From NCBI RefSeq assembly GCF_001430825.1, contig NZ_CP010535.1:2646501-2710500 (forward strand): a DNA stretch of 64,000 nt, read 5' to 3'. How positions within the stretch are numbered: the first letter of the stretch is position 1; each line of letters starts with the position of its first letter. Positions 5,384 to 53,324 of the stretch are shown piece by piece. A model generated the notes under the pieces. It saw nothing but the letters and a program-made list of their open reading frames with translations, did no database searches and was not told the origin of the DNA. The translations under genes were made by a program, and so were the position numbers. Source of the DNA: Sediminicola sp. YIK13. Its GTDB lineage: Bacteria; Bacteroidota; Bacteroidia; Flavobacteriales; Flavobacteriaceae.

Positions 5384-6379
5384 TTAAACCTTTACAATCA
5401 TCTTTCCTTTGTTCTTTCCTTTAAAAAGATCTATAAAGGCTTGGGGTGTTGCTTCAAATCCTTCAACAATGGTCTCCTTATAGGTTAGTTTACCTTCTCC
5501 CAACCACTGTCCCAATTGGTTCATGGCATCTGTGTACTTATCCGCATAGTCAAAAACAATAAAGCCCTGCATAAGAGCGCTGTTTTTTATCAAAAAAGGT
5601 TGTACACTGATACTTTTGGGCAATTCAGTCTCATTATAGACAGATATAGCACCGCAGATGACGAGTCGTGCTTTTTTATTGATGTTAAACAATACAGCAT
5701 CGGAAATATTACCCCCCACATTGTCAAAATAAACGTCCACTCCATTCGGACAAGTTTCTGCTATAGCCTTTACCATGTTCTCAGTGGAATTGTAGTTGAT
5801 GGCATCGTCAAAGCCAAATTCCGATTTTAATAGGGCCACCTTTTCATCGGTGCCAGCAATCCCAACAACTCTCAGTCCTAAAATCTTTCCTATTTGTCCC
5901 ACTACACTCCCAACAGCACCAGCGGCACCTGAAACCAGCAAAGTTTCACCCTCTTTAGGCTTACCAATTTCAGTGAGGCCTAAATATGCGGTTAGTCCGG
6001 TCATCCCCAATATTCCCAAATATGCGGATAATGGCGCTTTTTTGGCATCTACCTTCATTAAACCGTCTCCTTTGGTGACTTGTTGTTCTTTCCAGGGTAA
6101 ATTCCCAGTAACAAAATCCCCCTTATCGAAATTGCTGTTTTTGGTTTCCAGGACCTCAGCAACAATTCCTGAAACAATAGGTTGTTGTAGTTCAAAGGGT
6201 GGAATGTAGGATTTAACATCCCGCATACGCCCCCTTAGGTAGGGATCTACCGAGATATAGTTGGTCTTTAAAAGGATTTCCCCTGATTTAATTTCCGGAG
6301 TTGTTTCATCTATAATTTTAAAGTCGGACACTTTTGGCATTCCTTCAGGTCTGTTGTCGAGTAATATTGTCTTGCTCAT
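5384..6379 (-). CDS. NADP-dependent oxidoreductase, CurA/leukotriene-B4 dehydrogenase-like MDR
   Basis: 331 residues, a full-length medium-chain dehydrogenase/reductase of the zinc-free group. The N-terminal catalytic domain has the family motif SVDPYLRGRM (about 47-56), and the Rossmann fold has VSGAAGAVGSVVGQ (about 149-162). Zinc ligands are absent, as expected. Relatives reduce alkenal/one or curcumin double bonds with NADPH. It is monocistronic with its own terminator. The physiological substrate cannot be told from sequence; detoxification of reactive carbonyls is a family-level guess. Confidence 0.92.
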   Translation of the reverse strand: MSKTILLDNRPEGMPKVSDFKIIDETTPEIKSGEILLKTNYISVDPYLRGRMRDVKSYIPPFELQQPIVSGIVAEVLETKNSNFDKGDFVTGNLPWKEQQVTKGDGLMKVDAKKAPLSAYLGILGMTGLTAYLGLTEIGKPKEGETLLVSGAAGAVGSVVGQIGKILGLRVVGIAGTDEKVALLKSEFGFDDAINYNSTENMVKAIAETCPNGVDVYFDNVGGNISDAVLFNINKKARLVICGAISVYNETELPKSISVQPFLIKNSALMQGFIVFDYADKYTDAMNQLGQWLGEGKLTYKETIVEGFEATPQAFIDLFKGKNKGKMIVKV

Positions 6380-6552
6380 AATTTCATTTTATATTTAGTT
6401 CAATAAAATTTCTTTCAATTCTTTCTTAAATATGCTCCATAATCAATTGGAAATAACTTGTAATACTAAGATAGCCACAAAATGTTAGTTCATTCAATAC
6501 ATAAAGCCTTTAACAAAACTATATAAGTTTCATCCCTTTTTAGTGCATCATT

Positions 6553-6560
6553 TATTTTTG
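6553..6560 (+). promoter_or_regulatory. Possible -7 box (TATTTTTG) upstream of the DUF2064 gene
   Basis: TATTTTTG matches TAnnTTTG, 119 nt before the ATG at 6679 in the divergent region between the CurA-like and DUF2064 genes. The distance is long, and in AT-rich DNA such matches arise by chance. Confidence 0.25.
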
Positions 6561-6678
6561 TCAATGATCGAAAAAATCACCATCTGTTAAATTTTTAAGA
6601 TATTGTAATTTAAAAGTTAGGGGTTCGACCAAACCCTTAACACCTATTTAACGTAGGTACATCAAAGTTTTTGTTTCC

Positions 6679-7374
6679 ATGCCCCAAAAATTGAATATGA
6701 CCACCGCTGTATTGGTATTTGCCAACTCCCCTTCGGCGGAAACGCTTCACAAGCCCATACACAATGCTGAGAACTTATATCATGAGCTAACGGGGCAAGT
6801 GATACAAACGGTTGAGAAATCTGGGCTCCCCTATTTTCATTTTACAGAGCACGAACAAACAGGCTTCAGTTTTGGTGAACGGTTCACAAATGCCATTCAG
6901 GCTGTTTTTGACCATGGTTTTGACAATGTCATTACCATTGGCAATGATAGTCCCCAACTAAAAGCATCTCATATTAAAAGTGCTTCCCTGCATTTAAATA
7001 AACAGGAATTTGTTTTAGGGCCTTCTACTGATGGCGGATTTTACCTAATGGGTATTCAAAGAACTCAGTTCAATGCCACAAAATTTAAAAATTTACCCTG
7101 GCAAACTAATAGGACTGCTACTACCTTACTAGGACTTATACAGGAAACGAATCCTAAAGTTGTAAGACTTGAAATTCTGACGGATGTGGATTGCATTTCA
7201 GACTTAAAGCAATTACTGAATTTGTTTCATAGCATTCCTAATGCGATAATGGAACAAATGCGTTCCATTCTGAGTGTCAACAGCCTCCAAGTTATATACG
7301 AACAAATCTATTTTTCCAAAGATTTTGGCAAGAGCTTTTATAATAAGGGGTCTCCTCTAGTTGCCCTTATTTAG
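6679..7374 (+). CDS. DUF2064 GT-A-fold transferase (rSAM/selenodomain-associated type)
   Basis: 231 residues. Key segments are TAVLVFANSP near the N-terminus, ITIGNDSPQLKASHI (about 90-105) with the GNDSP nucleotide/metal site, and LGPSTDGGFYLMGI (about 113-127). These mark DUF2064, called in protein-family collections 'transferase 1, rSAM/selenodomain-associated' for its co-occurrence with ArsS-type radical SAM genes; one such gene lies downstream at 14817 on the same strand. It is a distant relative of CofC-like nucleotidyltransferases and GT-A glycosyltransferases. The reaction is unproven; sugar or nucleotidyl transfer to the rSAM product is an inference. The gap to the next gene is 68 bp. 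Confidence 0.87.
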   Translation: MPQKLNMTTAVLVFANSPSAETLHKPIHNAENLYHELTGQVIQTVEKSGLPYFHFTEHEQTGFSFGERFTNAIQAVFDHGFDNVITIGNDSPQLKASHIKSASLHLNKQEFVLGPSTDGGFYLMGIQRTQFNATKFKNLPWQTNRTATTLLGLIQETNPKVVRLEILTDVDCISDLKQLLNLFHSIPNAIMEQMRSILSVNSLQVIYEQIYFSKDFGKSFYNKGSPLVALI

Positions 7375-7396
7375 CCATGAGACATGCATGATATTC

Positions 7397-7408
7397 TTGA
7401 TGCATCAA
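7397..7408. repeat. 12-bp perfect palindrome TTGATGCATCAA
   Basis: It sits 34 bp before the SusC ATG, in the gap after the DUF2064 gene. It could be an operator for the transport genes; there is no other support. Confidence 0.3.
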
Positions 7409-7442
7409 ACCAATTCTATTCATACCAATTATTACATTTAGA

Positions 7443-10400
7443 ATGAAGCAGTTCGTTTTACTAACGGCCCTATGCTTTTTTGCATTGGGATCATCACAAA
7501 CTATTATTTCGGGCAAGGTGACCTCTGAATCCGGGGAGGCGCTATCTGGTGTTAACATTATATATGTGGGAACCAATAAAGGTGCTACCACCAACAACTT
7601 AGGGGAATATGCCATAAATATACCAGACACTTCTGGTTCCTTGGAATTTTCCACCCTTGGCTTCGAAACCCAAATTGTCTCCATTCGCAACAGAGACATG
7701 ATCAACATAGCATTGCGGGAATCCAGCCAAGAGTTGGATGAAGTAGTACTCACCGCCTTTGGACTTAAAAGGGAGAGCAAGGAATTAGGCTATGTAGTTC
7801 AGAGTTTAGATGCACAAGGTGTAACAGAAGTCCAATCGGTCAACTTTTTGGACAACCTGTCTGGAAAATTGGCAGGCGTAACCATAAACCAAGGTGCTAC
7901 GGGAGTAGGATCTTCCTCTAAAATAACCATTAGGGGTGAAGCTTCCTTTTCCAACAACAATCCACTTTTTGTGGTTGATGGCGTACCGATCAACAACAAC
8001 TCAGTTTTCAATTTTACCAATGAGGCGGCCGCAGGGTTTCAGGCGATAGATTTTGGTAACGGAGCCATGGAGGTCAACCCAGATGATATTGCTGAGGTGT
8101 CGGTTCTAAAAGGGCCAAGTGCCGCAGCCTTATACGGAACCAGAGCGTCCAATGGTGTCATAGTTATAGAAACAAAAAATGGTTCTAAAAGTAAAGGGCT
8201 TGGAATCAGTTACAATTCTAGCTTTTTTGTGGATTCTGCCTTTAAACTACCCGAGTTTCAAAACGAATACGGACAAGGAAATTCTGGCCAGTTTGCTTTT
8301 GTAGACGGTTTAGGAGGGGGTACCAATGATAATATTACCTACAGCTGGGGTCCTCGATTAGATCAAGGGATTTTGGTGCCTCAGTTTGATAGTCCGGTAA
8401 TTTTACCTGACGGACGTACAGTACGTGGTGGAGATACCTCACTATATGATGGTATCGCCATTACACCCACACCTTTTGTTTCCAACCCAGATAACTTAAA
8501 GGACTTTTATAAAACAGGGACCACTACGATCAATAACCTTTCCATTGCTTCCGGCTTTGATAAAGGCAACTATAGATTATCCTTTACAGATTTACGCAGT
8601 GAATCCATTATTCCTGGGGTAAATTTAGATCGCCAAACGATAAGCGCCCGCCTTGGGTTTTCACCAACGGATAAATTAAAAATAAATTCATCCATCAATT
8701 ACGTGAATTCCCAGAGTGATAACAGGCCCTCTAATGGCTATGGCTCAGAAAACGTGAATTACTCATTGGTTGCTTGGGGACCTCGGTCTCTGAACATCAA
8801 CAACCTGAAAGATTATTGGCAGCCAGGTCTGGAGGGCCTGCAACAATACTCCTATAATTACACCTTTTTTGATAACCCCTATTTTATCCTCAAGGAAAAC
8901 ACCAACTCCTTTAACAGGGATAGGGTTTTTGGGAATATATCAGCCAAGTACGAAATAACAGATCATCTGAGTGCTACGGTTCGCACTGGAATGGACTATT
9001 CCAATGAATTACGCCAATTGAAAAGGGCATTCAGCTCCAACCGCTTTAGAAATGGCGGGTACGCGGAGCACGATGTGTTCTTTCGCGAGATTAATACGGA
9101 TTTTCTTTTAAATTATACCAATAGGTTTGGTGATTTTAAGGTTGATATTTCCTTTGGTGGCAACAGAATGGATCAAAGGGCAGCAACCAATCAATCCCAA
9201 ACCACTAGTCTGGCGCAGCCAGGTATTTTTAAACTATCAAATGCTGCTTCCCCGATTGAAGTGTTCGAATTTGAAGCTGAAAAACGTATCAATAGTTTCT
9301 ATGGCTTGGCCAAATTCGGCTATAAAAATTACTTGTTCTTGGACATCACCGGTCGTAATGATTGGTCGAGCTCTCTGGCCACACCTTTTTCAGTGGACAA
9401 CACTTCGTTCTTTTATCCTTCGTTCTCTGGCAGCTTTATTCTATCGGAGGTTACCAGTCTTCCAGATTTTATTTCTTTTGCAAAACTACGCGCTAGTTAC
9501 GCCCAAGTAGGTAATGACACAAATCCTTATCAGACAACCGGTGCCTTTGTGGCCCAAACCCCTTTTAACGGACAGCCCACTTTTAGTGATCAAAATACCA
9601 TCGCCAATCCCAATCTTAGGCCCGAAACTACAAGTGCTTTCGAAGTGGGAGCGGATATACGCTTTTTCAGAGACCGATTAAATTTTGATATCAGTTATTA
9701 CAATGCGGTGACCAAAGATCAAATTATCTCCCTTCCTATTGGGGTATCATCCGGATACACGCAACAAGTGGTCAATGGAGGATCGGTAAGATCAACCGGA
9801 GTGGAGATCATTGCGGGAATAACCCCGATTACTACTCTTGATTTTACTTGGAGAAGCACCTTCAATTTTAGTACAAATAGGGCTACTGTTGAAGATCTAC
9901 CTCAAGATGATGGTAGGCTCACCCTAGCTTATTCCAGAATATATGACAGTCAAAACCAAACGGTATTTTTACAGGTAGAAGAAGGCGGTAGGGTTGGTGA
10001 CCTTTATGGCACGGGCTACCTAAAAAATGAGAATGGGGATTTTATACTAACCGATCAAGGGCGGTATATTGCCGACAACAATTTACAGAAATTAGGAAAC
10101 TACAATCCAGATTTTATGCTGGGCTTTACCAACCAATTTCAATATAAAAATTGGGATTTAGGGGTGCTTTTAGATTGGAGAAAAGGTGGCATCATTGTTT
10201 CACGGACAAGGGCCTTAGGGAATGTAGGTGGACAGTTGGCCGAAACCTCTTTTAGACCAGAAGCAGGCATTGTGCCAGAAGGGGTAGTAAATGTTGGCAC
10301 CCAAAATGCTCCGGTATACCAACCCAATACCGTTGCCCTAACTGCAGAAAGTTATTACCGACAATTCTACGACAGAAACCACGAGGAGAACAATACCTAC

Positions 10401-10646
10401 GATGCTTCTTTTCTAAAGTTGAGACAGGTAGCTATTGGATATACTTTTGATAGTTTTAATGTATTCAAAACCGATGCAAATCTTCGTATATCACTCATTG
10501 GGAGGAATTTGTTTGCTATCACTGAAAATCCACATTTCGATCCCGAACAACTAGCCGTACAGGGCCAAGGTTTTGTAAGCGGTGTAGAAGATATGTCCTA
10601 TGCAACCACTAGAAGTATTGGCCTAAAAGCCGGGTTTAATTTTTAA
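7443..10646 (+). CDS. SusC/RagA-like TonB-dependent outer-membrane transporter
   Basis: 1067 residues. A signal peptide (MKQFVLLTALCFFALGSSQ) is followed by a carboxypeptidase-D-like regulatory domain (about 22-105, GKVTSESGEALSGVNI), the linker LDEVVLTAFG, a TonB plug with FVVDGVPINN and GTRASNGVIVIETK (about 110-245), then a long beta-barrel ending in the aromatic GLKAGFNF. The conserved SusC segments and length are intact. It pairs with the SusD-like lipoprotein 9 bp downstream, forming the usual lidded-barrel importer. No glycoside hydrolase is linked; neighbours are an Na+ symporter and rSAM/selenodomain genes, so the cargo may not be an ordinary polysaccharide. Confidence 0.96.
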   Translation: MKQFVLLTALCFFALGSSQTIISGKVTSESGEALSGVNIIYVGTNKGATTNNLGEYAINIPDTSGSLEFSTLGFETQIVSIRNRDMINIALRESSQELDEVVLTAFGLKRESKELGYVVQSLDAQGVTEVQSVNFLDNLSGKLAGVTINQGATGVGSSSKITIRGEASFSNNNPLFVVDGVPINNNSVFNFTNEAAAGFQAIDFGNGAMEVNPDDIAEVSVLKGPSAAALYGTRASNGVIVIETKNGSKSKGLGISYNSSFFVDSAFKLPEFQNEYGQGNSGQFAFVDGLGGGTNDNITYSWGPRLDQGILVPQFDSPVILPDGRTVRGGDTSLYDGIAITPTPFVSNPDNLKDFYKTGTTTINNLSIASGFDKGNYRLSFTDLRSESIIPGVNLDRQTISARLGFSPTDKLKINSSINYVNSQSDNRPSNGYGSENVNYSLVAWGPRSLNINNLKDYWQPGLEGLQQYSYNYTFFDNPYFILKENTNSFNRDRVFGNISAKYEITDHLSATVRTGMDYSNELRQLKRAFSSNRFRNGGYAEHDVFFREINTDFLLNYTNRFGDFKVDISFGGNRMDQRAATNQSQTTSLAQPGIFKLSNAASPIEVFEFEAEKRINSFYGLAKFGYKNYLFLDITGRNDWSSSLATPFSVDNTSFFYPSFSGSFILSEVTSLPDFISFAKLRASYAQVGNDTNPYQTTGAFVAQTPFNGQPTFSDQNTIANPNLRPETTSAFEVGADIRFFRDRLNFDISYYNAVTKDQIISLPIGVSSGYTQQVVNGGSVRSTGVEIIAGITPITTLDFTWRSTFNFSTNRATVEDLPQDDGRLTLAYSRIYDSQNQTVFLQVEEGGRVGDLYGTGYLKNENGDFILTDQGRYIADNNLQKLGNYNPDFMLGFTNQFQYKNWDLGVLLDWRKGGIIVSRTRALGNVGGQLAETSFRPEAGIVPEGVVNVGTQNAPVYQPNTVALTAESYYRQFYDRNHEENNTYDASFLKLRQVAIGYTFDSFNVFKTDANLRISLIGRNLFAITENPHFDPEQLAVQGQGFVSGVEDMSYATTRSIGLKAGFNF

Positions 10647-10655
10647 TAAAGAAAG

Positions 10656-12107
10656 ATGAAGAGTAATTTACATATAAAATTTTTGGGATCCATAATGGCT
10701 TTGGCCGTTATTACTTCATGCAACAATGACTTTGAGGAGATCAATACCAATCCTAATGCACCCGTGAGCGTACAACCTAGTTTACTGTTACGCCAAGTGA
10801 TCTATGATTATGGGGAACAAATGTCCTATGAGGGTTTTACGGCGGGAAACCTTCTCGGACAATATACCACCGCCCTGGATTTTAACCTTTTTGATAGGCA
10901 CAATTTAAAATCTCCCCAGCTGGGAGGAAATCCATGGCCAATTTTTTATAAAAATCTCCGTGACAATGAACTTATTTTGGATCAGGCCAGGACTGTAGAA
11001 ACCTTTGCAGTATATGAAGGCCCCGCCCTTATTTTAAAGGCTTATATGACAGCGGCCTTGACAGATATCTTTGGGGATGTTCCCTACTCTGAGGCCTTTA
11101 GGGGGAAAAGTGAAACCGTTACTCCGGGGTATGACGCCCAAGAAAATATCTATTTGGAAGATGGGGGGATTTTGGACAACCTCAACAAAGGAATAGCGGC
11201 CATTCAAAACTACTCGGGAACCATTGCCTTGGAAGGGGATATTTTGTTTGAAGGAGACTTACAGGGTTGGATTCGTTTTGCGAATTCCCTAAAAATAAAA
11301 TCCTTGATACGAATCTCTAATAAAATGGATGTTGCCGTGGAATTGCAGGCCATTTATGATAATGGGGACTACATTGATAATAATTCACAAAATGCTGTTT
11401 TTGATTTCACCGATGGGGAGCCCAATAATTTTAGATTGGCCCGTTTGCGTGTTGGGGATTTCAATAATTTTGTCCTTTCCGAAACCATGGAGGAAATCTT
11501 GGTAAATCTAAATGATGATAGGATAGAGCGATTGTTCCGTCCTTTCGCCAATAGCACCAATGAAGAATTCAATGGGCTATTAAACGGGATTGATGCCTCA
11601 CAAACGTCAATAGCACTAGCCGATTATTCCTTGACAGGAACAATTTTCCGGGAAAATACCGGGCTATTGGATGCGAATTTTATGAGCAGTTGGGAGACCC
11701 AATTCTTATTGGCAGAGGCGGCCGAAAAAGGATTTATCACCGCAAGTGCAAAAGAATTGTACGAATTAGGGGTTACCCAGGCTTTTGAATACTGGCAGGT
11801 ACCATTACCGTCTACCTACCTAACCATAGATGCCGCTTATGATCTATCTGGCACGGAACCTTTAGAACAGATTATTACCCAAAAATGGATAGCCAATATG
11901 ATCAATGGGTATGAAGGGTGGATTGAATACAGGCGTACAGGCTTTCCGCAACTAAAAACCATTTCAGCGAGTCTGAACAACGACCTTATCCCGGTCAGAA
12001 TGCCCTATCCCGCAGAGGAAGAGGCTTTGAACAATAAAAACTATACAACTGCTGCTACAGCAACAGATGGTAACAGCATCAATGTTAAAGTTTGGTGGGA
12101 CGAATAA
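10656..12107 (+). CDS. SusD/RagB-family surface lipoprotein
   Basis: 483 residues. A lipoprotein signal peptide ends in AVITSC with the lipidated Cys at residue 22, followed by NNDFEEINTNPNAP, the typical start of the SusD-like_2 subgroup. The rest is the helical TPR-like fold with ILKAYMTAALTDIFGDVPYSEAF and a C-terminal WWDE. It forms the lid of the SusC-like barrel encoded immediately upstream and binds the substrate at the cell surface. Subgroup assignment is by pattern; the ligand cannot be predicted. Confidence 0.94.
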   Translation: MKSNLHIKFLGSIMALAVITSCNNDFEEINTNPNAPVSVQPSLLLRQVIYDYGEQMSYEGFTAGNLLGQYTTALDFNLFDRHNLKSPQLGGNPWPIFYKNLRDNELILDQARTVETFAVYEGPALILKAYMTAALTDIFGDVPYSEAFRGKSETVTPGYDAQENIYLEDGGILDNLNKGIAAIQNYSGTIALEGDILFEGDLQGWIRFANSLKIKSLIRISNKMDVAVELQAIYDNGDYIDNNSQNAVFDFTDGEPNNFRLARLRVGDFNNFVLSETMEEILVNLNDDRIERLFRPFANSTNEEFNGLLNGIDASQTSIALADYSLTGTIFRENTGLLDANFMSSWETQFLLAEAAEKGFITASAKELYELGVTQAFEYWQVPLPSTYLTIDAAYDLSGTEPLEQIITQKWIANMINGYEGWIEYRRTGFPQLKTISASLNNDLIPVRMPYPAEEEALNNKNYTTAATATDGNSINVKVWWDE

Positions 12108-12178
12108 TTCATTTCATGGTTGGGTTTTAAACTTTGGTTTGAGCGGTGGAAAAAATAAGTAAGAGATAAAAAATAGTT

Positions 12179-13513
12179 ATGGAACAGTATTGGCAATGGG
12201 GTTTGATTATCACTTCTAGTATACTACTATTTGTGCTTTCTCCTCTTGCTAAAAATACCAATCAGTTTTTTAAAGCTGTGCATAAAAAGAAAGCCCCCAA
12301 TACCTTTATGTTAATGGGGAGTTTGGTGATCTCTTGGATATTTGCGAAGAGCATAACCAACGCCGCAAATTTAGGGCTTGACTATGGAATTGTTGGAGGG
12401 GTAGCCTATGCTGCTTATTATGCTTCCTTTGCGGTGGCAGGACTTATCATTTATCAAATGCGCATGCAAGGTAAATTCCTCAGCATACACCATTTCTTAA
12501 CCTCAAGATATGGAAAGGGTGCAGTTGCGGTATTTTCTATTCTCATAGCCATACGACTATTTAACGAAGTATGGAGCAATACCATGGTCATTGGCACCTA
12601 CTTTGGGGAAACTGGATCATCCCCATATTTTTGGTCTATTTTAGTTTTTACGGCACTTACCTTGGCCTACACCCTAAAAGGCGGACTTAGTAGCTCCATA
12701 TTTACAGACGCGATCCAAATGGCACTATTTTCCATTCTTTTGTTCATCATACTTTGGAATGTATTCCATGTAGATGCCTCTTTCTCTCCTTCTAAAGCCA
12801 TTACAACCGGGGTGTGGAGTTTTGAAATGGGTGTCAATTTGCTTTTGGCGGCCCTTTTACAGTCCTTCAGCTATCCCTTTCATGATCCCGTGTTGACCGA
12901 TAGGGGTTTTATCAGTAGCCCTAAAGTGACAAGAAAAAGCTTTTTATGGGCAAGTTTAGTGGGTGCCATAAGCATTATACTGTTCAGTATTATAGGAGTC
13001 TATGCGAAGCATGCAGGACTACAGGGACAAGCAGCCGTTGAAGTAGGAAAAGCTTTTGGTGTGGCCATACTATTGGTCATCAATTTTATAATGATCACTT
13101 CCGCAGCATCAACATTGGATTCAACCTTTTCCTCCTTTTCCAAATTACTATCCGTAGATCTTAAGTTGGGGAATACCTTGAAATTTGGACGATGGTCAAT
13201 GGCCATTATTGCTATTTTAGGTACAATTCCCGTTTTTTTAAATGCAGAAATCTTATCGGCCACCACCATTAGTGGTACTATGGTCATTGGTTTGACCCCT
13301 GTATTTCTATTTTGGAAAAGTGAAACGCCTAAAATCAGTTTCTTTTTAAGTGTGTTTTGTGGAATATTATTTGGATTTTTATTGCTTTTGGAAGTTTTCC
13401 CACAGAGCCTGATCTTCACAAAGGGCAAATATGCCGATTTACTTTGGATTAATTTTTGGGGGATATTTTCCTGCATCTTATTATATTTTATACCCAAATG
13501 GATAAAAAAATAA
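12179..13513 (+). CDS. Sodium:solute symporter (SSS family)
   Basis: 444 residues with about 12-13 hydrophobic helices, slightly short for the family. Typical SSS features are GGLSSSIFTDAIQM in the middle (matching the GG...DxxQ signature) and an S-A-A-S-T-L-D sodium-site-like segment (about residues 308-314). It would carry the SusCD cargo, or a breakdown product, across the inner membrane with Na+. It follows susD by 71 bp, and its end overlaps the next gene by 16 bp, which supports one transcript. Substrate unknown. Confidence 0.9.
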   Translation: MEQYWQWGLIITSSILLFVLSPLAKNTNQFFKAVHKKKAPNTFMLMGSLVISWIFAKSITNAANLGLDYGIVGGVAYAAYYASFAVAGLIIYQMRMQGKFLSIHHFLTSRYGKGAVAVFSILIAIRLFNEVWSNTMVIGTYFGETGSSPYFWSILVFTALTLAYTLKGGLSSSIFTDAIQMALFSILLFIILWNVFHVDASFSPSKAITTGVWSFEMGVNLLLAALLQSFSYPFHDPVLTDRGFISSPKVTRKSFLWASLVGAISIILFSIIGVYAKHAGLQGQAAVEVGKAFGVAILLVINFIMITSAASTLDSTFSSFSKLLSVDLKLGNTLKFGRWSMAIIAILGTIPVFLNAEILSATTISGTMVIGLTPVFLFWKSETPKISFFLSVFCGILFGFLLLLEVFPQSLIFTKGKYADLLWINFWGIFSCILLYFIPKWIKK

Positions 13514-14709
13514 CACATCTGGGAACCCTATCGGGCAAGCTCATATTATTTGGGGGTGTTTATAGCAACCTTCAGGCCTTGGAGCGTCTTGTAGAAATTG
13601 CCAAAGAAGAAGGGATATCCCCTGAAAATTGCATCTGTACCGGGGACATTGTGGGCTACTGTGCACAACCGGAGGAAACGGTCGCTCTATTTAGACAATG
13701 GGGGGCAAAGAGTATTTCGGGCAATGTTGAGCAGCAATTATTTGAAGGTGCGGAGGATTGTGGTTGTGACTTCACCGAAGGCAGCAGATGCGATGGATTT
13801 TCAAAACTATGGTACCCCTACTCCCAAATGAAATTATCCGAGGATTCCATTGAATGGATGGGCCAGTTGCCCAACCATTTAACCTTTACCTATGGTGGGA
13901 AACAGGTGATGGTGGTCCATGGGTCTTACAGCAATATTTCTGAGTTTATATTTGAATCTACCCCAGATCATATAAAGCTTGAAAATTTTGAACAAACCCA
14001 AAGTGATATCATCATAGCCGGTCATTGTGGACTTCCATTTCATCAAAAATTGGCAAATCGCCAGTGGATAAACCCGGGAGTTATTGGGATGCCCGCCAAT
14101 GAGGGAAAAACAAGAGTCTGGTATATGATCCTAGAAGAAATTAATGGGGAAGTACAAGTTTCACATCAATATTTTGAATATGACCATACCACCGCTAACC
14201 AGCTGATGATAAAAAACCATTTACCCGAAGCCTATGCGGACACGCTCTTAACTGGATTTTGGGACAATATGGAAATTCTTCCCGCAGCTGAAAGGCAATT
14301 ACAGGGAAAATCTTATAATTTTAATCCCACCGAGGACCAAACAGAAGAAACAACAACTAAAAAAAATAAAAAAATGGCAGATTCATATTATGATCCAGCA
14401 GATTTAAGAAAGTTTGGCAAGATTACCGAATGGAGTGAGGAATTGGGAACAAAGTTTTTCGACTATTACGGAAAAGTATTCCAAGAGGGAGCCTTAACGG
14501 CCCGTGAGAAGTCACTCATCGCCTTAGCGGTATCACATGTGGTAAAGTGCCCTTATTGCATCGATTCTTATACCAAGGATGGCTTACAAAAGGGAATTAC
14601 CAAAGAAGAAATGATGGAAGCGGTCCATGTAGGGGCAGCCATAGAAAGTGGCGCAACCCTGGTACATGGTGTACAAATGATGAAAAAGTACGATAAACTG
14701 TCCATGTAA
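13498..14709 (+). CDS. Fusion: degenerate metallophosphoesterase-like domain + AhpD-like domain
   Basis: 403 residues from ATG 13498, which overlaps the symporter stop; a longer frame from 13456 lies inside the symporter and is less likely. Residues about 13-245 resemble a calcineurin-like phosphoesterase, but the first metal motif (normally D-x-H-x-N) reads GGVYSN (19-24), and GNH-D/E reads GNVE (75-78); GDIVGY (49-54), VVHGS (139-143) and AGHCG (174-178) remain. A low-complexity linker (TEETTTKKNKK) joins it to an AhpD-like domain (from Met293) with CPYC (351-354), like the peroxidase-related protein found with ArsS genes. The usual AhpD His after CxxC is Tyr358. Function unknown; the context links it to the radical SAM enzyme downstream. 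Confidence 0.85.
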   Translation: MDKKITHLGTLSGKLILFGGVYSNLQALERLVEIAKEEGISPENCICTGDIVGYCAQPEETVALFRQWGAKSISGNVEQQLFEGAEDCGCDFTEGSRCDGFSKLWYPYSQMKLSEDSIEWMGQLPNHLTFTYGGKQVMVVHGSYSNISEFIFESTPDHIKLENFEQTQSDIIIAGHCGLPFHQKLANRQWINPGVIGMPANEGKTRVWYMILEEINGEVQVSHQYFEYDHTTANQLMIKNHLPEAYADTLLTGFWDNMEILPAAERQLQGKSYNFNPTEDQTEETTTKKNKKMADSYYDPADLRKFGKITEWSEELGTKFFDYYGKVFQEGALTAREKSLIALAVSHVVKCPYCIDSYTKDGLQKGITKEEMMEAVHVGAAIESGATLVHGVQMMKKYDKLSM

Positions 14710-14816
14710 ATTAAATTATTGTTACTGCAGTACCATTGAGTTTAAAAGAATAGGAAAACCTCTTTATTCTGTAATCTTTTCATGGTTCTGCGAACTAAAT
14801 ACTGAATACAAAAAAA

Positions 14817-15872
14817 ATGGCTACAAAATCTTTAAAAGCAAGACATGATGATCTTGTGATCGGTAACAAACAATTGGAAATCCTGAACGGTGGCATCTTC
14901 GAAGATGGGGAACTCCCCTACTTTAAGGATAAAATTGCCCAAATAGGTCATTTCCCACTTCGACCTAAGAAGTTGGAAATATTGCAGATCAATGTGGGCT
15001 ATATGTGCAACCAGGTCTGTGAGCACTGTCATGTAGATGCAGGTCCGGACAGGAAAGAGATCATGACGCGTGATACGATGGAACAGTGTTTAGAGGTCAT
15101 CCGTAATACGGGTGCCCACACCCTGGATCTTACAGGTGGTGCCCCAGAAATGAATCCCGATTTTCGTTGGTTCGTAGAAGAAGCATCCAAGGCGGGGATC
15201 CAGGATTTTATTGTTCGATCTAACCTGACCATCATCAGGGCCAATAAAAAATACTACGATCTTCCAGAATTTTTCAAAAAACACAACGTGCATGTCATCT
15301 CGTCCATGCCCCATTACACTAGAGGTAAAACGGACAAGCAACGGGGTGACGGAGTTTTTGATAAATCCATTAAAGCACTTCAGGAATTGAACGCTGTTGG
15401 ATATGGCATGCCAAATAGTGATCTGCGATTGGATTTGGTTTACAATCCTTCAGGTGCCTACCTCCCAGGAGATCAGGCCGCCATGGAGCGCGATTTTAAA
15501 AAGGCATTAAAAGAAGATTTCGACATAGACTTTCATAATCTCTTTGCGATTACCAATTTGCCCATTGCCCGCTTTTTGGACTATTTGATAGCATCAGAGA
15601 ACTACGAAGATTATATGTATGCCCTAGTGGAGGCCTACAATCCTTCCGCGGTAGCAAACGTAATGTGCACCAATACCATTTCTATAAGCTGGGACGGGTG
15701 GTTATATGATTGCGACTTCAATCAAATGCTGGACCTAAAAGTGGCCAGTAAGGTGAAACATATAAAGGACTACAATGAGGATATCCTTAATGATAGGAAC
15801 ATCATTATATCACAACATTGTTATGGCTGTACCGCAGGTGCAGGGAGCAGTTGTCAGGGTACAGTAGCCTAA
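14817..15872 (+). CDS. arsS: ArsS-like radical SAM protein with C-terminal selenodomain (DUF3641 type)
   Basis: 351 residues. The radical SAM cluster motif is CNQVCEHC (Cys64, 68, 71), followed by LTGGAPE. The C-terminal half carries MCTN, DGWLYDCDFNQ and the terminal HCYGCTAGAGSSCQG (334-348), the signature of the rSAM/selenodomain family, in which some members have selenocysteine. Here every position is a Cys codon. The characterised cyanobacterial ArsS transfers a 5'-deoxyadenosyl group to dimethylarsenite on the way to arsenosugars. No ArsM methyltransferase is visible in this window, so the substrate is not certain. The neighbours (AhpD-like, DUF2064) are the family's usual companions. 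Confidence 0.92.
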   Translation: MATKSLKARHDDLVIGNKQLEILNGGIFEDGELPYFKDKIAQIGHFPLRPKKLEILQINVGYMCNQVCEHCHVDAGPDRKEIMTRDTMEQCLEVIRNTGAHTLDLTGGAPEMNPDFRWFVEEASKAGIQDFIVRSNLTIIRANKKYYDLPEFFKKHNVHVISSMPHYTRGKTDKQRGDGVFDKSIKALQELNAVGYGMPNSDLRLDLVYNPSGAYLPGDQAAMERDFKKALKEDFDIDFHNLFAITNLPIARFLDYLIASENYEDYMYALVEAYNPSAVANVMCTNTISISWDGWLYDCDFNQMLDLKVASKVKHIKDYNEDILNDRNIIISQHCYGCTAGAGSSCQGTVA

Positions 15873-15927
15873 ATTAGGCCATTCTTGTAAGGTAAAATAA
15901 GGTGTAAATACACTTTATCCGAGATTA

Positions 15928-15967
15928 AAACCGACCAATTACCAACTGATTGGTCGGTTTATTTTTT
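15928..15967. terminator. Terminator of the arsS operon, or TetR operator
   Basis: Arms AAACCGACCAAT (15928-15939) and ATTGGTCGGTTT (15949-15960) form a perfect 12-bp stem with a 9-nt loop, followed by ATTTTTT. It works as a terminator for arsS. The ACCGACC/GGTCGGT halves also resemble TetR-family operators, and a TetR gene begins 141 bp downstream, so a double role is possible. A second imperfect dyad (ATAAGGTGT/ACACTTTAT) lies just before it at 15897-15918. Confidence 0.7.
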
Positions 15968-16107
15968 AAAAATGACCCTTTTTTGTAGAAAATAGCCGTT
16001 ATAACGATTTTATCGTGCGATACGTCTTTTAATATTTACCAAATCCTATATCTGTCTGTTCTTTGTTAAAGACTCTCGGGTCTGTTTTACCCCAAAACCC
16101 AAATCTC

Positions 16108-16722
16108 ATGGAAAAGAACCTAAAACGCATGGCCACCATGCATCGTATGCAACGTACTGGACTAGAATTGTTTTATCAACAGGGATATTATAATACCAGT
16201 ATAGATGACATCTTAAAAAAGCTGTCCCTTTCGAAAGGAGCGTTTTACTACCACTTTCAATCCAAGGAAGATTTCTTTATTAGTATTGTACAGAACCTTT
16301 TGTTCCAAAAAGTATACAGTATGCTTGTGGAGCCCATTGAAGGTCAGGAAGACCCTTTAAGCGTTATTTCCAAGTCCATAGAAGACGCCCTTGAAACGGC
16401 AGAGCACAATACAATGGATTTTGGTTTTGTGTTAAGCAACTTTATCACAGAATTCAATGGAAGGAATCCTGAAATCATGAAATATCTCATGGATATAATA
16501 AAAGTATGGGAGGTTAATCTGATTACGACCTTGCAAAAAGGAAAAACAGATGGATATGTAGACAGACATGTAGACAGTGAGGCCGTTGCCACTTATGTGA
16601 TCTCATCTTATATAGGGGTGCGCACTTTAATGGTAGAAGGAAATTCAAAAATGTTACGCTATAAGTATGTACAACAATTGAAAAACTACTTCAAGTTGAT
16701 TTCCCAAAAAGCTGTGGCCTAA
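16108..16722 (+). CDS. TetR/AcrR family transcriptional regulator
   Basis: 204 residues from ATG 16108; an upstream TTG (16063) would add 15 residues of poor quality. The N-terminal helix-turn-helix is clear: TGLELFYQQGYYNTSIDDIL, then LSLSKGAFYYHFQSKEDFF (about residues 13-55). The C-terminal ligand domain resembles the TetR_C_6/YcdC-like type, loosely. It follows the arsS operon on the same strand but is separated by the hairpin, so it may be independently expressed and could control the upstream genes. Ligand unknown. Confidence 0.9.
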   Translation: MEKNLKRMATMHRMQRTGLELFYQQGYYNTSIDDILKKLSLSKGAFYYHFQSKEDFFISIVQNLLFQKVYSMLVEPIEGQEDPLSVISKSIEDALETAEHNTMDFGFVLSNFITEFNGRNPEIMKYLMDIIKVWEVNLITTLQKGKTDGYVDRHVDSEAVATYVISSYIGVRTLMVEGNSKMLRYKYVQQLKNYFKLISQKAVA

Positions 16723-22162: not shown

Positions 22163-23515
22163 TTAATATGCCTTCTCCTCCCCTTTGATGGCATTTAACA
22201 CGGTTTGGAATACTATTTTAATATCCAGGAAGAGGGACCAGTTTTCTATATAGAAGATGTCAAATTTAATCCGGTTTAAAATATCCGCCTCGGCCTCTAT
22301 TTCTCCTCTATAACCGCGAATTTGCGCCAATCCTGTTATACCGGGCTTCACAAAATGCCTCAACATATACTTATCTACCTTGTTGGCATACTCATTAGTA
22401 TGTTTTACCATATGGGGCCTTGGGCCTACAACCGACATTGTGCCAAAGAACACATTATAAAACTGTGGTAATTCATCAATGCTGGTTCGTCTTATGAAGC
22501 GCCCTACTTTTGTTATCCGCATATCATTTTTACTGGCCTGAAAACGATCCGCATCTTGGTTAGGGGCCATAGATCGAAATTTATAACAATAGAACTCCTT
22601 GTTGTCTATTCCGTTTCTTTTTTGCCTAAAGAAAATAGGGCCTTTAGATTCAAGCGATATAATGATGGCCAATAATGGTGTCAGCCACGACAACAAGCCA
22701 AGGATCACAATTATAGCAAAAATAATATCGAACGAACGTTTTACAAATGAGTTAATGGGGTTATGAAGGGGTATATCCCTTAACGATAAAACAGGGATAT
22801 AATCATAATATTCAAACTTCAATTTCTTCGCGAAGATGTTCTTGTTGTCCGGAATAAATTTTAAGGTCTTTAAATTGTTATCCGCAAAATTGATAAACTC
22901 ATTTATTTCACTGTTCTTTAATTCCGAAATAGAGCAATAGATTTCATCGATTTGTTTAATTAGGATATAATCAAACGTTTTTTGGATATCAAAACCCCTG
23001 TCCTTTGGGCAAAACTGCTTTACAAAATGATACCCAAATTCTGCCCTATTGTTGAATACATCTATTAGTTGTTCCGTTTTTTTGTTTTTTCCAATGACCA
23101 CAACATTCCTAAGATTTCCTTTTACGCGTTCCCTATATTTCATTAATAGCACATAGTTCAAAAACTTTAAAGCTGAGATTGATAAACCTACAAGTAAAAA
23201 ATATTGGCCCAAAACAAACCGACTGATGTTGGGTTGTTTAAAAAATCCTATAAAAGCATAAAGGGTTAAGAAAAAGAATAAAAATTGAGAAAATAACAAT
23301 TTTAGAATGTAGGTTACCTTGGTATACCTATACACCTCATAAAATTCATTTTTAAATGAAATGATCACCCAGATTATGGAAATGTAGGTGTGGAAAAGAA
23401 TTGGTGTTAAAAAATTAATAGGCAGATAATAGGCAAACAGATTGATGACCAACAAATCCACCGCATAGGATATGGGATTAATAAAACCTGAATAGCGATG
23501 TTGGTTGGAAAACAT
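22163..23515 (-). CDS. Initiating polyprenyl-phosphate sugar phosphotransferase (WcaJ/WbaP-like)
   Basis: 450 residues. Four or five N-terminal hydrophobic helices, a central CoA-binding-like region, then the bacterial sugar transferase domain: KRSFDIIFAI (about 255), PIFFRQKRNG, YKFRSM, and DELPQFYNVFFGTMSVVGPRPHM. This enzyme starts O-unit or exopolysaccharide assembly by moving a sugar-1-phosphate onto undecaprenyl phosphate. It sits at the distal end of the polysaccharide locus next to UXS and GT4 genes and has its own -7 box. Confidence 0.94.
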   Translation of the reverse strand: MFSNQHRYSGFINPISYAVDLLVINLFAYYLPINFLTPILFHTYISIIWVIISFKNEFYEVYRYTKVTYILKLLFSQFLFFFLTLYAFIGFFKQPNISRFVLGQYFLLVGLSISALKFLNYVLLMKYRERVKGNLRNVVVIGKNKKTEQLIDVFNNRAEFGYHFVKQFCPKDRGFDIQKTFDYILIKQIDEIYCSISELKNSEINEFINFADNNLKTLKFIPDNKNIFAKKLKFEYYDYIPVLSLRDIPLHNPINSFVKRSFDIIFAIIVILGLLSWLTPLLAIIISLESKGPIFFRQKRNGIDNKEFYCYKFRSMAPNQDADRFQASKNDMRITKVGRFIRRTSIDELPQFYNVFFGTMSVVGPRPHMVKHTNEYANKVDKYMLRHFVKPGITGLAQIRGYRGEIEAEADILNRIKFDIFYIENWSLFLDIKIVFQTVLNAIKGEEKAY

Positions 23516-35390: not shown

Positions 35391-36248
35391 TTACGTTAAA
35401 TTCATTAGATAGGTCCCATACCCGCTTTTTAAAAGGGGCTCTGCCAACTTATGGAGTTGAGCTTTGGAAATATATCCCATGATGTACGCAACCTCCTCTA
35501 TAGCACCTATCTTAAGCCCCTGCCGCTCCTCTATTACTTCCACAAATTGGGAGGCTTGCATTAAAGACTGAAATGTTCCAGTGTCCAACCATGCTGTACC
35601 CCTATCCAAAATGCTCACTTTTAGTCTTCCCTCTGCCAAATAGGCTCTATTAATATCAGTTATCTCCAACTCTCCCCTTTTGCTTGGTTTTATCTCCTTT
35701 GCAATTCTCACCACGTCATTATCATAAAAATAAATCCCTGGTACAGCATACTTCGATTTAGGATTTTTAGGCTTTTCTTCTATGCTAATAGCATTACCAT
35801 CATCATCAAACTCTACCACTCCATACCTTTCTGGGTCTTGGACGTGGTAGCCGTATATAATACCACCTTCAGGGTCATTATTCTCCTGCAATAAAGTAGA
35901 TAACCCAGTGCCATAGAATATGTTATCACCTAATATCAATGCCACGTTGTCCTTTCCTATGAATTTTTCTCCAATGATAAAGGCTTCTGCTAAACCATTC
36001 GGATTTTCCTGTTTAGCATAAGTAAATTTACATCCTAATTGGCTACCATCACCTAATAGCTTCTTGAATAAGACAGTGTCCTCAGGTGTTGTTATAATAA
36101 GTATTTCCTTAATTCCAGCCGACATTAATGTGGCCAGCGGATAATAAATCATCGGCTTATCATAAATTGGCATCAGTTGCTTGCTCATCGCGATGGTAAT
36201 GGGATAAAGTCTTGAACCTGAACCACCTGCCAAAATAATGCCTTTCAT
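35391..36248 (-). CDS. rfbA: Glucose-1-phosphate thymidylyltransferase
   Basis: 285 residues, typical length. Nucleotide motif [11 protein letters not shown] (about 7-17), sugar-phosphate contacts in [29 protein letters not shown], and GTAWLDTGT. Makes dTDP-glucose, the first step to dTDP-rhamnose. It follows rfbB by 1 bp, so expression is coupled. Confidence 0.97.
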
Positions 36249-38319: not shown

Positions 38320-40005
38320 TTATGAATTAAATATTTGTGTTAGTATTTTATCAGTGATCAAATAGGTGGGTTTAACCCCTGTGGTGCCTAAACCACCTGA
38401 AGCCAAAGTACTCCCTGTTTCCAAGGGGTTGTCAGAGGCATAATAGGCATATCGCACTTTTACATCTTCCCTGATGCTCTTGCGTACCTTGGAAGCTGCT
38501 TGAATCGCCTTTTGGTAATGTACTCCTTCCATTTCCAAACCTATCACGTTCCAGGTGGATTCATGGAAGAATTTTAAAATGTCTTTATTCTGTAAGGAGG
38601 TTCCCAGAACCGTTATCATGGCGCCTTCCAATACCTTGAGCCCGTTCCCTTCAAAATCTTTAGCGGTGAACTCATTCTTAAATGGATAATTATCCGCCGT
38701 TCCCTCAAAAATATGGGAGGTTGGGATCATCAAATCCCCTTTGCCACCTTCCAGTATACCCGCTTTTCCCATTATGGAAATAGAAGCCACATCTAAAAAC
38801 ACCTCTTGGTGTTTTTTCTTCTTATATGGCTTTAAAAACTCATCAATAGTTTCATAGGCCTGTTCCCCGAATGCATAGTCCATCACAAAAATGACGGGCT
38901 TTTTATCATCGGGAATATTTTCATTTAATTCAAAACAACAGGCATCCTTGCCCAATTTGGCGGTATCAAATATTTGCACATCTATATTGGTGCCCGAGGT
39001 ATCGTCCAAAGAAATCATCCCGTTCTTCTTTGCCACGGATATTACCTTATTTCTCAAGGCTCCGTTTTCAGGTGAACTAAGGGCCTCATAAATCTCTAAT
39101 GAAGCTGTTTTGCCATATTCCTTGGACAACGCCTTTTTGGCGAACAATGAATTCATGACACTATGCATATTGGCACTAATGATATGAATGGGTCTTTCCA
39201 AGAGACCATGTGCTTTTAATGTTTCCTTTATATCATTTGCCCATCGTTCTCCATGAATGTGGTGACCCAAACGCTCCCTTAATAGTGGAGTAAAAGTAAT
39301 GGCCCTCTTATTGCCAGTGGTCTCTTCTTCAATGGCCAACTTCCCCAGCCAGTAAACAATCTTAAGAAATCGCTCCGGTTCTGATTTGGTTGCGAATTTT
39401 TTGTGAATTTCAATGGCCTCTGTAAAGGATCTTCCCAAGATATTGGCAGTATGGATCAACGCCACCTCCCTTTCGGTCTGGGTCAGTTTGTTCTTTGCGA
39501 TGGCCTCCTCCAATTTCACCCAGTCCCTAATGGTCCTATCCGTATCTTCTATCAAGACCCTTTTGGCTATTTTCTGGGATTCTATGAATAAGAAAGTAAG
39601 GTGGGTAAGAATGTCATATATATCGGAACGGCCCCTGGTAATCTCAATGTTCATCTGCTCATCGTCTATACGGTAGCAGTTTCTCCTTCTTTTTGGGGGA
39701 ATAATTGGTTTGAAGTGCGATTTCCCATAACCTTCGTCCGAGGTAAGGTTGATAAACCTACATTGTTCTATTCCTTCAGGCAAGCGCTCCAAAACATAGA
39801 TTAAACCGTTTAATTCAGTTTTTTCCTCCGCAATGGACCCATAAATCTCTGGTCGTAATTGCAATAAGGCATTTCTCAAGGTTTCCCCTGAAATGCCCAT
39901 TGGCTTATAAAACCCCCTATTGAAAAGGTGGCGCATTGTAATATATAACCGCTCAATGGCATTGGTAGATTCTTGAGCCCGCGTTGTATGTTTCAATTTA
40001 TTCAT
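38320..40005 (-). CDS. DUF6909 family protein (nucleoside-phosphorylase-like C-terminal part)
   Basis: 561 residues, soluble, no signal peptide. First gene of the polysaccharide operon, 3 bp before the Wzz-like gene. The N-terminal half (YITMRHLFNRGFYKPMGISG) is helical; the second half contains NVIGLEMEGVHYQKAI, which resembles the M-E-x-E/G segment of nucleoside phosphorylase folds, and a later SDNPLETGS. The overall match is to the Bacteroidota DUF6909 family. Activity unknown; a nucleotide-related role is a guess from the C-terminal motif. Confidence 0.65.
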   Translation of the reverse strand: MNKLKHTTRAQESTNAIERLYITMRHLFNRGFYKPMGISGETLRNALLQLRPEIYGSIAEEKTELNGLIYVLERLPEGIEQCRFINLTSDEGYGKSHFKPIIPPKRRRNCYRIDDEQMNIEITRGRSDIYDILTHLTFLFIESQKIAKRVLIEDTDRTIRDWVKLEEAIAKNKLTQTEREVALIHTANILGRSFTEAIEIHKKFATKSEPERFLKIVYWLGKLAIEEETTGNKRAITFTPLLRERLGHHIHGERWANDIKETLKAHGLLERPIHIISANMHSVMNSLFAKKALSKEYGKTASLEIYEALSSPENGALRNKVISVAKKNGMISLDDTSGTNIDVQIFDTAKLGKDACCFELNENIPDDKKPVIFVMDYAFGEQAYETIDEFLKPYKKKKHQEVFLDVASISIMGKAGILEGGKGDLMIPTSHIFEGTADNYPFKNEFTAKDFEGNGLKVLEGAMITVLGTSLQNKDILKFFHESTWNVIGLEMEGVHYQKAIQAASKVRKSIREDVKVRYAYYASDNPLETGSTLASGGLGTTGVKPTYLITDKILTQIFNS

Positions 40006-53004: not shown

Positions 53005-53005
53005 G

Positions 53006-53076
53006 AGGCATCGAGCAGATTCGAACTGCTGTACAAGCTTTTGCAGAGCTCTGCCTAGCCACTCGGCCACGATGCC
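53006..53076 (-). tRNA. tRNA-Cys (GCA)
   Basis: 71 nt. Acceptor GGCATCG/CGATGCC, D arm GCC-GAGTGGCTA-GGC, anticodon arm GAGCT-CTGCAAA-AGCTT with U33 and anticodon GCA, T arm AGCAG-TTCGAAT-CTGCT, discriminator U (typical for tRNA-Cys). CCA is not encoded. Confidence 0.95.
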
Positions 53077-53218
53077 AATTTTGGATTGCAAATCTACAAA
53101 AATTAATTCTAAGAAAAATTAATTTTAGCGTAGTTTTATTTAAAACGAACCCCTGCCCTATTTGTTGTGGTTCTCGGTTCAATTAACGCATAGGAGTATT
53201 GGTCTGTGAGCCAATTGA

Positions 53219-53244
53219 AAACGGTCTTAAAAATTAAGACCGTT
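53219..53244 (-). terminator. Hairpin downstream of the tRNA-Cys-like gene
   Basis: AACGGTCTTAA and TTAAGACCGTT form a perfect 11-bp stem around a short A-rich loop, directly after the 3' end of the minus-strand tRNA-like gene, followed by TTTTC on that strand. Confidence 0.75.
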
Positions 53245-53252
53245 CTTGTTTG

Positions 53253-53324
53253 AGGCATCGAGTGGACTCGAACCACTATAAAGGTCCTTGCGGGACCCCG
53301 TCTCTCCATTTCGACCACAATGCC
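53253..53324 (-). tRNA. Second, unusual tRNA-Cys-like gene (GCA, C33)
   Basis: 72 nt. Acceptor GGCATTG/CGATGCC (one G-U), D arm GTC-GAAATGGAGA-GAC with A14, G18, G19, T arm AGTGG-TTCGAGT-CCACT, discriminator U as in tRNA-Cys. The anticodon arm is GGGTC-CCGCAAG-GACCT, anticodon GCA, but position 33 is C where U is nearly universal, and an alternative GGTCC/GGACC pairing would leave only a 5-nt loop. It shares the acceptor with the neighbour tRNA-Cys. It may be a functional minor tRNA, a non-translational tRNA, or a decaying copy. Confidence 0.65.

Follow-up and report, generated by a model that had tools for sequence, protein, structure and literature searches.

Relation to described systems

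The block of six genes analysed here lies on the + strand at 6679-15872 of a 64,000-nucleotide stretch of the Sediminicola sp. YIK13 genome (the window; positions 2,646,501-2,710,500 of a single-contig 3.57 Mb genome, NZ_CP010535.1), and the closest described system is the cyanobacterial ArsM-ArsS pathway of (oxo-)arsenosugar biosynthesis. The radical S-adenosylmethionine (SAM) enzyme of oxo-arsenosugar biosynthesis is reportedly named as ArsS in the title of a 2021 paper by Cheng, and we know of no SusC/SusD pair, symporter or cysteine-bearing phosphoesterase-fold partner in the described cyanobacterial pathway. The window has the same ArsS, and ArsM, purine nucleoside phosphorylase (PNP), TIGR04282 and TIGR04283 are found elsewhere in its genome; in contrast to the cyanobacterial pathway, ArsM was not found in many Flavobacteriaceae bearing what we call the cassette, i.e., SusC, SusD, a sodium:solute symporter (SSS) and a phosphoesterase-fold protein. 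According to PMC12159101, arsenic is adenosylated by a radical SAM enzyme during the formation of oxo-arsenosugars. On the basis of its sequence we propose that the ArsS of the window adenosylates dimethylarsenic(III). We found no report of a SusCD system or symporter for organoarsenicals in the open papers of PubMed Central, the subscription literature being mostly outside this search. What we describe is a real and conserved variant of the arsenosugar pathway with an uptake part, unreported as far as we searched, whose role can be tested. Our reading, which we consider probable though well short of certain, is that the block would be the uptake-plus-ArsS half of an arsenosugar pathway, in which the cassette imports a methylated organoarsenical that stands in for ArsM.

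Two further systems invite comparison. Polysaccharide utilisation loci likewise pair a SusC gene with a neighbouring SusD gene for a lipoprotein-like product; unlike them, the block is free of carbohydrate-active enzymes (none of its six genes encodes a glycan-degrading enzyme, in keeping with a preliminary description of this DNA that had noted SusCD without glycoside hydrolases), and SusCD is accompanied by a Na+ symporter, a phosphoesterase-fold protein and the enzymes of arsenosugar synthesis. Bacteria may also salvage a vitamin by uptake in place of synthesis, and there too (e.g., B12 transporters) a TonB-dependent importer occurs where a biosynthetic gene is missing, whereas the compound salvaged by the cassette would, if the analogy holds, be a methylated arsenical.

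Gene content of the block

The features of the block, with the evidence for each, are as follows.

6679-7374, + strand: DUF2064v, a DUF2064/TIGR04282 nucleotidyltransferase-like variant (PF09837, TIGR04282, alignment)
7443-10646, + strand: SusC-type TonB-dependent outer-membrane transporter (TIGR04056, PF13715, PF07715, PF00593)
10656-12107, + strand: SusD-like_2 outer-membrane lipoprotein (PF12771, sequence, PDB homologues)
12179-13513, + strand: divergent sodium:solute symporter, SSS/SSF (TIGR00813, PF00474)
13498-14373, + strand: N-terminal part of a fusion protein, calcineurin-like phosphoesterase fold (PF12850, model)
14374-14709, + strand: C-terminal part of the fusion protein, AhpD-like arsenosugar-associated peroxidase family, with CPYC (TIGR04169)
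14817-15872, + strand: ArsS, radical SAM enzyme with a DUF3641 C-terminal domain (TIGR04167, PF12345, PF04055)

The preliminary description had placed six genes here on one strand with an overlap and short gaps, and all six were found so: the spacings are 68, 9 and 71 bases, followed by a 16-base overlap of the symporter and fusion genes and a 107-base gap before ArsS. The fusion gene it reported is present, with a start that we move from 13456 to the ATG at 13498 as the most likely one. ArsS scored 440.9 bits against TIGR04167 (cut-off 300), spanning positions 2-302 of the 303 in the model, with further matches to PF12345 (184.9 bits) and PF04055 (36.2 bits), and its translation contains C-x3-C-x2-C, which we take to be the radical SAM motif. 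SusC scored 602.8 bits against TIGR04056 (cut-off 368), and SusD, which begins 9 bases after it, scored 291 bits against PF12771 (cut-off 27), has a Cys (TSC) after a signal-like stretch at its N-terminus, and has PDB homologues of which the best is 5j5u (E-value 1.8e-37). The symporter is a divergent member of its family, falling just below the PF00474 cut-off (22.7 bits against 22.8) and far below that of TIGR00813 (38.9 bits against 184); a search of its profile against the PDB at E ≤ 1 gave a single match, to the high-affinity choline transporter 9rws (SLC5A7 chain, 5.2e-7), which is too weak to name a substrate.

Across species, the cassette proteins are much alike: relatives in other cassette loci share 67–82% identity with the window's SusC, 66–79% with its SusD and 67–80% with its symporter, whose closest named relatives among the matches listed, all at 80%, are from an uncultured Flavobacteriaceae bacterium, Maribacter antarcticus and Cellulophaga tyrosinoxydans. 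The conservation of SusD suggests that it has one constant ligand. A generic polysaccharide locus was set aside, given this likeness of SusC and SusD and the lack of a carbohydrate-active enzyme. The preliminary description had also entertained salvage of a selenium/arsenic-linked metabolite, and the family name ‘selenodomain’ gave us reason to consider selenium; we set it aside without excluding it, as the ArsS of the window has Cys throughout and no result of ours points to selenium, the genes of selenium metabolism not having been searched for.

Linkage of the cassette to ArsS in the Flavobacteriaceae

Our first sample comprised 299 genomes of the family, in 215 of which ArsS scored over its cut-off, and the symporter profile was later run over 397. 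The profile matched in 41 of the 299 genomes and in 52 of the larger draw, and in 50 of these 52 (39/41 in the first sample and 11/11 of those new to the second) ArsS was in the same fetched stretch, i.e., the ~20 kb that extend about 9.3 kb to each side of the symporter. As a random place would correspond to about 20 kb in 3.6 Mb, the linkage of symporter and ArsS exceeds chance. The preliminary description had made its proposal hinge on whether relatives have the SusCD-symporter-ArsS linkage, and by these counts it is strongly conserved. No symporter match was found in 15 genomes from other families of the order.

The two exceptions differ from each other (G and L numbers denote genomes and loci). 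In G086 the cassette (L174) is apart from the ArsS cluster (L198). The symporter relative of G241 (L148) is only 58% identical and the genome has no ArsS over cut-off; elsewhere in it (L234) TIGR04282-, PNP-, DUF547- and TIGR04283-type genes remain, and this is perhaps a pathway in decay. Among named species, we examined the best 80 of 336 symporter relatives: 77 of their loci hold ArsS, two (L107 and L135) end at a contig edge, and that of Flagellimonas beolgyonensis (L101), the sole such case among these 80, has the cassette with no ArsS in view. As the cassette is apart from ArsS in both L101 and L174, it may move on its own.

Among the same 80 loci we recognized two layouts. Layout I, that of the window (31 of the 80), runs DUF2064v, SusC, SusD, symporter, phosphoesterase-fold protein, TIGR04169 protein and ArsS; layout II (46 of the 80) begins with the TIGR04169 protein, ArsS, DUF2064v, SusC, SusD, symporter and phosphoesterase-fold protein, and continues, with smaller variations, through a rhodanese-like gene, TIGR04282, PNP, ArsM (present or absent), a desaturase-like gene, DUF547 and TIGR04283. 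Cluster representatives of PNP, rhodanese and TIGR04283 scored over their cut-offs, and the ArsM of a cassette-free locus (L011) matched NF038099, ‘arsenosugar biosynthesis arsenite methyltransferase’, with 563 bits (cut-off 400). The ArsS loci read first were 60 chosen among the top matches listed. By ‘Maribacter-type’ we mean the gene order of the window with a flanking tetR and/or heptosyltransferase gene, common in named Maribacter loci. In 9 of 14 cassette-free ArsS loci with such a flank, DUF2064v directly precedes the TIGR04169 protein and ArsS. DUF2064v is therefore not strictly part of the cassette, and to judge from these gene orders the stretch of SusC, SusD, symporter and phosphoesterase-fold genes behaves like a module that can be inserted as a whole.

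The cassette and ArsM trade off

ArsM was sought with one protein query for the arsenosugar (AsSugar) type and one profile for the canonical type (NF008823 over cut-off), the latter in all 59 ArsS genomes without the AsSugar type, with other methyltransferase families outside the search; below, ‘any ArsM’ is either type, and the counts concern ArsS-bearing genomes only (n = 275). The AsSugar type was present in 168 of the first 299 genomes, 167 of which bear ArsS, and was unevenly spread between genomes with and without the cassette (18/40 vs. 149/175, p = 3.9e-7). Canonical ArsM did not fill the difference: among genomes of this sample without the AsSugar type it occurred in 1/22 with the cassette vs. 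15/26 without it (that of the cassette genome G120, which has an in-frame stop, being scored as present). For any ArsM the counts were 19/40 with the cassette vs. 164/175 without (Fisher p = 8e-11). A second sample took in 80 of 98 further genomes, 60 of them with ArsS, including all 11 new cassette genomes (G391-G407 and G409 were omitted; G408, G410 and G411 were added so that all cassette genomes were covered), and gave 3/11 vs. 46/49 (p = 9e-6), with G325 scored as ArsM-bearing from a 63-residue match and canonical ArsM in none of the 11 ArsS genomes of this sample without the AsSugar type (8 with and 3 without the cassette). Combined, any ArsM was found in 22/51 ArsS genomes with the cassette vs. 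210/224 without it (p = 2.5e-15); the two trade off among ArsS-bearing Flavobacteriaceae.

The same pattern appears among close relatives. Same-genus pairs differing in the cassette, compiled by hand from the ArsS genomes, comprised six in which ArsM is missing from the genome with the cassette and present in the one without (genera g97, g55, g93, g46, g172 and g176), seven ties (g73, g3, g171, g20, g164, g168 and g195) and none of the opposite kind (sign test p = 0.031). An ArsS tree of 127 of the 275 genomes (every one of the 51 cassette genomes plus 76 cassette-free ones, five of the latter being among the 14 cassette-free genomes in which no ArsM was found) has 21 changes of cassette state, and letting the rate of ArsM loss depend on the cassette raised the log-likelihood by 15.5 (likelihood ratio 31.0, 1 df, p = 2.6e-8). 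The modelled rates, near 0 without the cassette and 14.8 with it, are not to be taken literally because the resolution of the tree is weak and the choice of its rows depended in part on cassette state.

In cassette genomes whose ArsM-less clusters can be seen in full, the rest of the pathway is kept. Of the 30 cassette genomes without the AsSugar type (among them G120 with its canonical match), 20 have layout II, 17 of which show PNP together with TIGR04283 and no ArsM; in the other three (G273, G298 and G408) either the visible stretch stops short or one of the genes is lacking. The other 10 have layout I, and a second island, read in seven of them (L226-L232), has kept rhodanese, TIGR04282, PNP and TIGR04283 in 7/7 cases with ArsM absent. 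Among the best 80 of 336 named relatives, 31 layout II loci show PNP together with TIGR04283, and nine of these have a visible ArsM as well. Other second islands retain ArsM, namely those of G163, G032, G221, G171 and the window's own genome (L147). L147 has an ArsM 77% identical to the query and a TIGR04283 match of 235.6 bits (cut-off 182), its PNP and TIGR04282-like copies being identified by tblastn only, so that this genome holds the arsenosugar gene set of ArsM, PNP and TIGR04282/TIGR04283 relatives. Since ArsS and the later genes stay, the cargo of the cassette would enter after methylation and before ArsS, and we infer that its supply joins the pathway between ArsM and ArsS. The organoarsenical uptake suggested in the preliminary description thereby gains support, because cassette genomes are often without ArsM yet keep ArsS and the rest of the pathway; the compound taken up may be an arsenosugar or another methylated arsenical.

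The phosphoesterase-fold and DUF2064v proteins

The C-terminal part of the fusion protein scored 193.2 bits against TIGR04169 (cut-off 120) and contains CPYC, a CxxC motif, while the N-terminal part scored 40.7 bits against PF12850 (Metallophos_2; cut-off 27); the two parts are joined in 30 and separate in 93 of 123 locus rows, counting duplicates and the window's own locus (L063). An AlphaFold2 model of the N-terminal part (mean predicted local distance difference test score 89.6, from a 52-row alignment) matched the calcineurin-like phosphoesterases 2gju, 1nnw, 3qfm (SapH) and 3rqz at Z-scores of 25–26.5 over 216–244 residues, the best (26.5) being to 2gju. The preliminary description had called this simply a phosphoesterase-like domain, which holds for the fold but not for the active site. 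The protein shares with these enzymes metal site B (D50, N76, H141 and H176 when aligned to 3rqz), while the ligands of site A and the catalytic His are replaced (G20, Y22, G178 and V77), the motifs GDxH, GNH and GHTH having become GGxY, GNV and GHCG; the metal-ligand and catalytic roles of these positions are those we presume for the fold. It further differs from them by Cys 45, 55, 88, 90 and 98, invariant in all 116 rows with letters there, with Cys177 in 107 rows and Cys47 in 99 (120 partly non-independent rows, numbered from ATG 13498). Given these replacements at site A and at the catalytic His, the protein is unlikely to act as a phosphatase; our guess is that the cysteines may form a thiol site for an arsenical, which would fit its fusion with a redox CxxC protein.

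DUF2064v, which the preliminary description had taken for a DUF2064 transferase, belongs to that Pfam family (PF09837, 78.8 bits, cut-off 25.8) but stays below the cut-off of TIGR04282 (105.2 bits against 134), covering only positions 70-189 of the 189 in that model. The N-terminal KTRL of the classic layout II copy (L089) is absent from the DUF2064v alignment, and the family's GND and DGG-type motifs are retained; the DUF2064v model is nearest to 3cgx, followed by CofC-type guanylyltransferases. Behind a variable linker the protein ends in a conserved NKGSP tail (7342-7356; NRGSP in one row), modelled with low confidence (block means 45–57), and NKGSP is the C-terminus of 83 proteins, all from one cluster. 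We ruled out that it marks a DNA element because it is written in 26 different codings in 30 rows.

Proposed function and alternatives

In our proposal, SusC and SusD would capture an organoarsenical on the outside of the cell and take it across the outer membrane by TonB energy. The Na+ symporter would then pass it, or a smaller arsenical derived from it, to the cytoplasm, where the AhpD-like thiol protein with its CPYC and the cysteine-bearing phosphoesterase-fold partner might keep or make the arsenic trivalent and thiol-bound and hand dimethylarsenic(III) to ArsS, which would couple it to a 5'-deoxyadenosyl group; PNP and the TIGR04282/TIGR04283 transferases, encoded at a second place in the genome of the window, would complete the sugar. 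The imported compound would thus do the work of ArsM, and many cassette-bearing species would on this account have dropped that gene. We infer in which direction each step runs and what DUF2064v and the two fused domains do, and likewise the methylated-arsenical nature of the cargo, for which dimethylarsinate, arsenosugars and arsenobetaine-like compounds are possible candidates.

Several observations weigh against this proposal. An ArsM is retained by 22 of the 51 cassette genomes, among them that of the window, which has the cassette plus an AsSugar-type ArsM at its second island, so that uptake there would supplement rather than replace ArsM. No ArsM was found in 14 of the 224 cassette-free ArsS genomes (six of them <90% complete), and ArsS can therefore occur without both; in six of these 14, the loci (L185-L188, L223 and L224) are short clusters with the TIGR04169 protein, ArsS, TIGR04282, PNP and some further genes, with no rhodanese or TIGR04283 gene in view. 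As a control, canonical ArsM was found in one of 17 ArsS-negative genomes scanned (G378, in which ArsS is absent at the threshold used). The seven independent pairs on well-supported branches of the ArsS tree, about 4.5 of which are opposite in ArsM and none the same way, give a median p of 0.125, short of 0.05. Finally, relatives of SusD usually bind glycans or peptides, which are larger than dimethylarsinate.

The alternative that survives best, though we think it unlikely, is that the cassette imports algal arsenosugars or arsenolipids for breakdown or remodelling and that ArsS merely detoxifies the dimethylarsenic released. This would account for the loss of ArsM equally well, and the cassette does contain a cytoplasm-type phosphoesterase-fold protein, with DUF2064v adjoining; its named carriers include Maribacter, Winogradskyella, Polaribacter and Cellulophaga, genera often found with algae. 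However, ArsS, PNP and both transferases have been retained wherever they can be seen, which suggests a cell that goes on building the sugar; in addition, the cassette has no glycosidase, and importing arsenic would be an odd route to detoxification. Less probable again is that the cargo is free of arsenic, e.g., a glycan, glycerol-type or lipid acceptor of the arsenosugar, and serves a late step; SusCD pairs mostly import glycans, and in layout II the TIGR04283, desaturase-like and DUF547 genes come after the cassette, but the loss of ArsM in cassette genomes would go unexplained. Least likely, by a little, is that the trade-off reflects lineage or a search miss and the linkage mere co-inheritance of neighbours: the result from the independent pairs, the weak resolution and partly selected rows of the tree, and the search by one query and one profile speak for it, but the trade-off recurs in the second sample, within genera (with none opposite) and by likelihood on the tree, and the separate cassette of G086 indicates that the cassette is not bound to the ArsS cluster.

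Neighbouring features

Two features lie directly downstream of the block.

15928-15960, + strand: inverted repeat and T-run after ArsS (terminator-like scan)
16063-16722, + strand: TetR-family regulator beside ArsS, outside the cassette (PF00440)

The inverted repeat has a 14-pair stem, the longest of the 18 hairpins in 6300-16200 by the terminator-like scan (9.7 expected), and includes the palindrome GACCAATTACCAACTGATTGGTC at 15933-15955, between ArsS and the TetR gene. From its sequence it is likely a transcript end, or else a TetR operator. The TetR gene stands beside ArsS in layout I loci and is unmatched in layout II loci. A scan with what we take to be the Bacteroidota-type promoter pattern found nothing upstream of 6679, and its matches over the window as a whole (7 vs. 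4.8 expected) were not in excess.

Farther away, all on the - strand, the window encodes a protein of 3075 residues (54754-63981) that combines SprB repeats with a CHU_C type IX secretion signal, probably a gliding or surface adhesin; two consecutive tRNA-Cys genes (gca; 53005-53324), of which the one at 53005-53076 alone reached the Rfam tRNA threshold; and a long one-strand gene run (22163-42468) with a bacterial sugar transferase (22163-23515), a sugar-nucleotide transferase (35391-36248) and a DUF6909 protein (38320-40005), the run being perhaps for surface-polysaccharide synthesis.

Implications

The purpose of arsenosugars is an old question to which detoxification is the usual answer, and a conserved importer that trades places with ArsM makes it directly testable. 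With a dedicated importer for the outer and inner membrane, synthesis of its own often given up and a useful arsenic sugar as the product, methylated arsenic might be a nutrient that these bacteria want, and not something to be detoxified; we hold this as a possibility, and a tentative one. If it were so, arsenosugar synthesis in the Flavobacteriaceae would serve use, not detoxification, and the phosphoesterase-fold protein with its cysteines would represent a novel type of protein for handling arsenicals. Were the uptake proposal true, the cassette would include the first SusCD system for an organoarsenical known to us, and the marine arsenic cycle would gain a step of uptake.

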